64,000 nucleotides of DNA from Porphyrobacter sp. LM 6 (GTDB lineage: Bacteria > Pseudomonadota > Alphaproteobacteria > Sphingomonadales > Sphingomonadaceae). How positions within the stretch are numbered: position 1 is the first letter of the stretch; each line of letters opens with the position of its first letter. Positions 26,876 to 30,023 of this stretch are shown here, in pieces. A program made the translations under genes and the position numbers. The notes under the pieces are model-generated. The model searched no databases. It was not told the DNA's origin and was given only the letters and a program-made list of their open reading frames with translations. The stretch covers positions 2,418,001 through 2,482,000 of the forward strand of contig NZ_CP017113.1 of the NCBI RefSeq assembly GCF_001720465.1. The letters are read 5' to 3'.

Positions 26876-27304
26876 TCAGGCGTCGAGCGCGGCGGCCAGC
26901 CGGCTGCGGATCGCTTTCAGAGCCTGGATGGTTTCGGCCATGTCCGGCCCGTCGTTCACCAGCAACCGCACGCCTGGGCCTTCGCTTTCGGCGTCCGCCC
27001 TGCGGTCACCGCTGCGCCGGTCAAGCCGCCGCCGGTCGAGATCGGATTTGGCTGCCGCGCGCAGCACCGCCTCGGCGCCCTTGAGGGTATAGCCTTCGCG
27101 GTTCACCAGCCGGTCGATGGTTTCCACCAGCGCAACGTCGCTGGCGCGGTAATAGCGCCGCCCGCCGCTGCGCTTGAGCGGTTTCAGCAGCGGGAACTGC
27201 GCTTCCCAGTATCGCAGCACGTGAGGTTTGATGCCGAGCGCCTCGCTGACTTCGCCGATGGTGCGCAGCGCGCCCTCGTCCTTGCCGTCATCGAACCCGG
27301 TCAT
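26876..27304 (-). CDS. MerR family transcriptional regulator
   Basis: 142 residues. N-terminal MerR winged helix (about 13–80; TIGEVSEALGIKPHVLRYWEAQF and GGRRYYRASDVALVETI) followed by a short basic and helical tail with no metal-binding cysteines. It is the small MerR protein that regularly follows ihfA after fabH in alphaproteobacteria; its targets are unknown. ATG 27304 is preferred over an in-frame TTG one codon upstream. Confidence 0.9.
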   Translation of the reverse strand: MTGFDDGKDEGALRTIGEVSEALGIKPHVLRYWEAQFPLLKPLKRSGGRRYYRASDVALVETIDRLVNREGYTLKGAEAVLRAAAKSDLDRRRLDRRSGDRRADAESEGPGVRLLVNDGPDMAETIQALKAIRSRLAAALDA

Positions 27305-27750: not shown

Positions 27751-29808
27751 TCACAGGCGGATCAGGCTCGCGCCCCAGGTAAATCCGCCACCCATCGCCT
27801 CCAGCATCACCAGATCGCCCGCCTTGATCCGCCCGTCCTTGCGCGCGATATCGAGCGCCAGCGGCACAGATGCGGCCGAGGTGTTGGCGTGGTCCTGCAC
27901 GGTGACGACCACCTTGTCGGGCGAAATGCCGAGCTTGCGTGCGGTCGCATCAAGGATGCGGGCATTGGCCTGATGCGGCACCACCCAGTCGATCTCCTCG
28001 ACCGCGACACCGGTGACTTCAAGCACTTCCTTGAGCACGTCGGCGAGATTGACCACCGCGTGGCGGAACACTTCCTGCCCGCGCATCCGTACATGGCCGA
28101 CGGTCTGCGTGGTCGATGGGCCGCCATCGACATAGAGCAGATCATGGCAGGTCCCATCGGCGTGCAGGCGCGTGCCGAGAATGCCGGGGGCATCCTTGCC
28201 GCTCGCCTCGCCTGTGGGGGCTTCAAGCACCACCGCGCCGGCTCCGTCGCCGAACAGCACGCAGGTGGTGCGGTCTTCCCAGTCGAGAATGCGGCTGAAG
28301 GTTTCCGCGCCGATCACCAGCGCGCGCTTGGCCATGCCGGTCCGCAGCAGCGAATCGGCAGTGGCGAGCGCATAGAGGAAGCCCGAACACACCGCCGCGA
28401 CATCGAAGGCGATCCCGCCGGTGCAGCCGAGCGCGGCCTGCACCTTGGTCGCCGTGGCGGGGAAGGTATTGTCGGGCGTAGCGGTGGCGAGCACGATCAG
28501 CCCGATCGAGGCCGCGTCCACTCCCGCATCTTCAAGCGCCGCGCGGGCGGCGGCGGTGGCGAGCGTCGCGGTGGTTTCGTCCGGCCCGGCGATATGGCGC
28601 TGGCGGATGCCGGTGCGCGCGATGATCCATTCGTCCGAGGTGTCGACCGTTTTGGCCAGCTCGTCATTGGTGACGATGCGGCGCGGCAGGGCCGAGCCCG
28701 TGCCGATGATGCGCGATCCGTTCACTTGGCCGCCCCGGCGTTCTTCCGCGGGCTTGGCGCGGCCGTTCTGCTTGAGCGTATCGGCGCCCAGCTGCGAAAG
28801 GTCATGCGCGATCCGCTGGGTCAGCTCGTTTTCGAGCAGGCGCGCGGTCACCGCGACGGCATGGGCGACGCCCTTGGCATTGGCGCTGCCATGGCTCTTC
28901 ACCACCACGCCGTTAAGGCCGAGGAACACTGCGCCGTTGTGATTGTTCGGATCGAGGTGGTGCTTGAGCAGCTCGGTCGCGGGGCGTGAGACCAGAAACC
29001 CGATCTTCGAACGCAGCGAGGAGGTGAAGGCCTGACGCAGCAGGTCGGTAACAAAGCGCGCCGAGCCTTCGATCGCCTTGAGCGCGATATTGCCCGAAAA
29101 ACCGTCGGTCACCACCACATGGGTTTCGCCGCGGTTGATCTTGTCGCTTTCTACGAAGCCGTCGAATTGCAGCGCCAGCCCGCCATTGGCCGAGGCCGCG
29201 GTGAGCATCGCGGCGGCATCGCGCAGCTCTTCGGTGCCCTTGATCTCTTCGGTGCCGATATTGAGCAGCCGCACCACCGGCCTGTCGAAGCCGTTGACGA
29301 TGCGCGAATAGGCCGCGCCCATCACCGCATACTGGACGAGGTTGCGCGCATCCGCCTCGGTATTGGCGCCGAGGTCGAGCATCACGACGTCATGGGCTTG
29401 CAAGGTCGGCATAATCGCAGCGAGCGCCGGGCGATCGATCCCCGGCATGGTGCGCAGCGCCAGCTTGCTCATCGCCATCAGCGCGCCGGTATTGCCTGCA
29501 CTGACAGCCGCGCCGGCGTCGCCGGTCTTCACCGCATTGACCGCAAGGCCCATGCTGGTGGTCTTGGCACGGCGGATCGCCTTGCTGGGCAGCTCGTCGC
29601 CGCCCACCACATCGTCGCAGTGCAGGATTTCGGATGCCGCCCTGAGGTTGGGATGGCTTTCAAGCGCGGCTTCGATCCGCGCGCTATCGCCAACCAGCAG
29701 GAACTTGAACTTGTCGTGATCGCGCCGCGCCAGCGCCGCGCCTTCGATCATGACGCGCACGCCTTCATCGCCGCCCATCGCGTCAACGGCGATACGCGGG
29801 AGGCTCAT
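27751..29808 (-). CDS. plsX-fabH: Continuous PlsX–FabH reading frame: phosphate acyltransferase joined to 3-oxoacyl-ACP synthase III
   Basis: One open frame of 685 residues. Residues 1–about 355 are a complete PlsX (starts [34 protein letters not shown]), which makes acyl-phosphate from acyl-ACP for phospholipid synthesis. Residues 362–685 are a complete FabH with the catalytic triad Cys474, His612 and Asn642, which begins fatty-acid elongation from acetyl-CoA and malonyl-ACP. A short polar linker ([15 protein letters not shown]) joins them and no stop separates them. A GTG at 28725 in the same frame sits where FabH normally starts, so a separate FabH could also be made. Normally these are two adjacent genes. 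A lost stop codon, a base error in the sequence or a true fusion are all possible. Confidence 0.85.
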
Positions 29809-29846: not shown

Positions 29847-30023
29847 TCAGCCGACGGCAACAACCTGACGCCCGTTGTAGTGGCCGCAGTGGCCGCAGAT
29901 GTTGTGGGGGCGCTTCAGCTCACCGCAGTTCGAGCATTCACCGAAGGCTTCAACCTTCAGCGCATCGTGCGAACGACGCATGCCGCGACGGGAAGGCGAT
30001 ACTTTTCTCTTGGGGACAGCCAT
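29847..30023 (-). CDS. rpmF: 50S ribosomal protein L32
   Basis: 58 residues, starting [20 protein letters not shown] and ending QVVAVG. A zinc ribbon is formed by Cys30, Cys33, Cys43 and Cys46. It is the standard first gene of the rpmF–plsX–fabH lipid cluster and lies 38 bases upstream of plsX on the same strand. The 221-base gap to the divergent MAPEG gene must carry both promoters. Confidence 0.96.

Follow-up and report, generated by a model that had tools for sequence, protein, structure and literature searches.

Is the uninterrupted reading frame that joins plsX to fabH in Porphyrobacter sp. LM 6 an evolved gene fusion, or was it produced by an accident at the junction of two ordinary genes? 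We examined this question in a window of DNA, by which we mean the whole stretch of 64,000 nucleotides that was analyzed. The minus strand of the window contains one open reading frame at 27751-29808 that begins with ATG, runs for 685 codons plus a stop codon, and has zero internal stops. The features of this locus are as follows.

26876-27292, minus strand: MerR-family regulator (PF13411), next gene downstream, with a provisional start codon
27324-27620, minus strand: HU/IHF-type DNA-binding protein (PF00216), downstream neighbor, which we take to be ihfA-like
27751-29808, minus strand: single frame encoding PlsX and then FabH (from the ORF translation)
27751-28725, minus strand: FabH (KAS III), from the usual GTG to the stop (TIGR00747, NF006829, PF08545, PF08541)
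28722-28725, minus strand: GTGA, the overlap of fabH start and plsX stop in relatives; the TGA is outside the plsX frame here
28726-28788, minus strand: variable tail of plsX, residues 341-361 (from comparison with the loci of relatives)
28789-29796, minus strand: PlsX domain, phosphate acyltransferase, residues 5-340 (TIGR00182 and PF02504)
29847-30023, minus strand: rpmF, encoding ribosomal protein L32 (PF01783), upstream neighbor

Both halves of the protein exceed the curated cut-offs of their family models across nearly the entire models. TIGR00182 (PlsX) matched residues 5-340 with 324.3 bits (cut-off 243.4), covering model positions 2-330 of 337, and TIGR00747 (FabH) matched residues 365-684 with 405.6 bits (cut-off 292.1), covering model positions 3-321 of 322. 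NF006829 (FabH) matched residues 364-685, the Pfam domains concur with both assignments, and the halves of the 685 amino acid protein each match solved structures, one of PlsX and the other of FabH. Residues C474, H612, and N642, which we take to be the catalytic triad of FabH, did not vary when 13 two-domain proteins were aligned. The whole chain has a calculated mass of 71.6 kDa; the part before the GTG accounts for 38.0 kDa and the part from the GTG onward for 33.6 kDa. These results bear out much of the first-pass annotation of this DNA, which had described a single 685-codon frame without a stop, a complete PlsX and a complete FabH with the residues Cys474/His612/Asn642, an in-frame GTG (28725-28723) at the usual start of FabH that we accept as a possible internal start, and products of about 72, 38, and 34 kDa. 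It gave the linker as about 15 residues, which is too short; the family models are separated by 23 residues (341-363). Since both domains are strong homologues, chance is not at issue, and the real question is why the intervening stop is out of frame.

A structure model made with 13 sequences was of low confidence (mean pLDDT 67.1, pTM 0.49); it was too weak for a fold search and was used for the linker alone. In this low-confidence model residues 341-362 had pLDDT values below 50, as is expected of a flexible linker.

The genome that contains the window (G000) consists of one contig of 2,979,257 bases and is 99.99% complete. In the whole genome there is one match to PF02504 and one fabH above the cut-off, both at the 27751-29808 locus. 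We considered whether a second plsX or fabH copy makes this locus dispensable and rejected this, none being found genome-wide above the cut-off. With a sole plsX and a sole fabH above the cut-off, the cell would depend on the 27751-29808 locus. A second KAS III-like protein is encoded at G000:C1:1634309-1635139 (L201), and a weaker KAS III-like match is present at 295588-295842; both are below the fabH cut-off.

Comparison with relatives placed the anomaly at the junction. In close relatives from Erythrobacter and Porphyrobacter, the plsX stop and the fabH start mostly share the four letters GTGA, an overlap of about 4 nt, and in other close relatives fabH starts just after the plsX stop. Of 31 loci compared, 27 have fabH in phase 2 with respect to plsX; in these, plsX stops either where fabH starts or immediately upstream, and in most of them the two meet in GTGA. 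The remaining four are the window itself (L001), a locus in phase 0 with an intervening stop (L003), and two unclassified loci (L002, L027). The window resembles the overlapping pairs of Erythrobacter and Porphyrobacter (L005, L006, L007, and L066) in gene order, in the completeness of both domains, and in the GTGA at the junction, which it retains at 28725-28722. It differs from them in that their plsX frame is closed by the TGA within the overlap, whereas the plsX frame of the window skips this TGA and reads through, its tail being one base off.

The size of this difference was seen when the distance was measured from an anchor where conserved PlsX ends to one where conserved FabH begins. 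This anchor-to-anchor distance is 81 nt in the window and 80 nt in both L005 and L007; most other loci have other distances with the same phase as L005 and L007. This comparison had 139 entries, of which 75 without both anchors were left out. Of the 64 entries with both anchors, 61 are in phase 2 and one in phase 0, all of these with a stop; the window, which was entered twice, is in phase 0 and free of stops. Thus, the plsX tail of the window is one base (modulo 3) out of phase, and the exact site of the change is ambiguous. The tails of the relatives differ in length and sequence. The tail in the window is GC-rich and has a run of four G at 28733-28736 (C on the plus strand). The first-pass annotation had advised checking the junction for an indel or a lost stop, and a one-base phase shift is what the comparison with relatives gave. 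RNA structure at the junction, of the kind associated with recoding, was not unusual (z-scores of 0.65 and -0.83), and since the frame is already open no recoding is needed.

Separate genes are the rule beyond these close relatives, too. Of 120 loci we classified 119, leaving out L002 because it is without one of the domains. Separate genes were found at 118 of the 119 loci (80 in phase 2, and 38 in phase 0 where a stop intervenes); some contigs were taken in by two routes, so these 118 loci represent fewer independent genomes. The sole fused locus is that of the window. We then surveyed 114 genomes of the genus (112 matched), 397 of the family (395 matched), 396 of the order (391 matched, using the fused protein record P0001 as query), and 385 of the class (375 matched). 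The four surveys share members and comprise 1,073 distinct genomes in all. Among the matches listed for these 1,073 genomes, a stop-free row over both domains occurred in G000 only, and every other listed row spanning both domains had at least one stop. These figures rest on the best rows listed, among which a fused gene would be expected near the top. A fusion common to related genomes was not seen among the matches listed, where the counts were 1 of 114 in the genus and 1 of 397 in the family, each time G000.

Searches with the single proteins gave a similar picture. The closest PlsX proteins (P0121 and P0122) have 98% identity, are separate, and are 359 aa long. The best 120 PlsX-only matches are 344-388 aa long and the best 120 FabH-only matches 318-329 aa, from searches designed to exclude proteins as long as 685 aa. 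No independent sequence was demonstrably from the same species: the best PlsX match, at 98%, has a different tail and the best FabH matches are at 90-91%.

Two-domain records do occur in protein collections. Among the best 120 of 1,299 matches to the full-length protein, 10 have both domains near-whole, 62 have both in part, and 48 have one only. Each of the 10 near-full-length fused records is a cluster of one or two sequences, and they have no conserved linker: 4 to 44 residues separate the domain alignments, and the linkers are dissimilar by eye. The protein encoded in the window was itself absent among these best 120 of 1,299 matches; clustering at 90% could conceal near-identical members of this collection. 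P0001, a PlsX-FabH record of 674 aa with 77% identity, comes from a 690-kb contig. It is like the protein of the window in having both domains in one predicted chain and unlike it in its linker, and it is a single sequence. Three near-full-length fused records (P0002, P0034, and P0043) come from eukaryote-labeled data and are perhaps contamination. One of them, P0043, is named after a spider (Trichonephila) and combines ribosomal L32, PlsX, and FabH domains in a single chain, which may represent bacterial genes that were run together. In P0005 and P0014 there appears, by eye, to be a change of frame inside the conserved PlsX part, which suggests that such PlsX-FabH records can arise from indels. 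The first-pass annotation knew of no described PlsX-FabH fusion. We also found none in the accessible portions of the literature, and in this sense the statement stands; it does not extend to protein collections, which hold these sporadic records.

We also gauged how often reading frames are broken elsewhere in this assembly. Over 600 kb, G000 and a relative (G070) have 545 and 521 gene-like ORFs with counterparts, respectively, counts in which some non-coding frames are included; splits number 4 and 3. Inspected by eye, these splits contain one clear frame break in G000 besides plsX-fabH and none in G070; the remaining splits are upstream extensions or non-coding frames. This count rests on the 7 splits and not on the 112 and 91 ORFs with in-frame stops in the counterpart. 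The other break in G000 is outside the window on the minus strand (L138, G000:C1:2526644-2527254), where a one-base frame change occurs at a five-C run in a gene for what we take from its motif to be a LuxR-type regulator; the counterpart in G070 is 206 aa long. With one other clear frame break in 600 kb, the assembly is not riddled with indel errors. So low a rate is compatible with a handful of residual errors or with a handful of natural indels. According to the available part of one study, singleton frame transitions are likely to come from indel mutation or sequencing error (PMC3711429).

Based on these results, we consider it very likely that an accidental change joined an ordinary overlapping pair of genes, the probability being shared about equally between a residual sequencing or assembly error and a recent private indel. 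The window differs in phase from relatives in which the two genes overlap and in which, among the matches listed, the fusion is absent, and we infer that the phase change was an accident. If it is an error, for which we see close to an even chance, the overlap at GTGA is present as usual in the DNA of the strain, which makes two proteins. The restriction of the one-base change to a single genome and to a GC-rich tail with a four-G run points to this, as do the position of the sole other clear frame break at a five-C run, the occurrence of the ten near-full-length fused records (among the best 120 of 1,299 matches) as singletons or a pair, and the apparent frame shifts within conserved PlsX in P0005 and P0014. 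However, few frame breaks were found in G000, and four G make a short run. The chance that the indel is genuine, recent, and private to this strain, which would then make a real PlsX-FabH fusion, falls a little short of even. With both domains complete and the junction in a tail that varies among relatives in length and sequence, such a fusion could be tolerated. The low pLDDT of residues 341-362 in the low-confidence model and the presence at this locus of the only plsX and the only fabH above the cut-off are consistent with this, but among the matches listed no other of the 1,073 surveyed genomes has such a row, and no independent sequence was demonstrably from the same species.

Some evidence counts against this reading: the genome is one nearly complete contig with one other clear frame break in 600 kb, the two domains are intact, which would be needed for a real mutation to be tolerated, the fused record P0001 of similar sequence exists, and there are 62 further matches with both domains in part among the best 120 of 1,299. 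We nonetheless regard an evolved, selected bifunctional protein that couples chain initiation to phospholipid synthesis as highly improbable. Fused records are found sporadically in several lineages, P0001 included, but no fused clade was seen, the near-full-length clusters have one or two members, the linkers are dissimilar between records, and the nearest relatives have separate genes. Among the matches listed, no stop-free two-domain frame came from a surveyed relative, and on that ground we rejected an evolved fusion as the main reading. The suggestion in the first-pass annotation of a functional, evolved arrangement was therefore not upheld; relatives keep separate genes and the window differs from them by a one-base phase change. 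That the base count is right and the strain lives on one 72-kDa protein carrying its sole PlsX and its sole FabH above the cut-off is possible, although we are inclined to doubt it.

An accident of this kind would have occurred in an ordinary rpmF-plsX-fabH cluster whose plsX and fabH would otherwise overlap at GTGA, like those of close relatives. In those relatives, the anatomy of the overlap suggests that fabH is translated by stop-and-restart after plsX. In the window, the non-conserved tail of plsX would have been shifted by one base (modulo 3); with the tail out of phase, the plsX frame passes over the TGA of the overlap and a single frame covers both genes. If the base sequence is correct, elongating ribosomes would yield a chain of about 72 kDa in which a linker of about 23 residues, probably unstructured, connects two complete enzymes, and the GTG at 28725 would perhaps give some free FabH as well.

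If the joined frame is an accident it matters little in itself, and a one-base slip across an overlap is then one route by which PlsX-FabH "fusion proteins" enter databases. If the indel is genuine, the strain is a small natural experiment on the tethering of the chain-starting enzyme to the one that commits to phospholipids. With the base count right, this would be a natural gene-fusion accident in which two key lipid enzymes work when tethered.

A known point of comparison is the fab cluster of Escherichia coli, in which, according to the accessible text of two sources, plsX and fabH are separate and adjacent and are followed by fabD, fabG, acpP, and fabF (PMC2837039; PMC13060810). The two loci are alike in having adjoining genes for the same two enzymes. 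They differ in that the E. coli genes are separate and lead into fabD-fabG-acpP-fabF, whereas the joined frame in the window is followed by HU/IHF-type and MerR-type genes.
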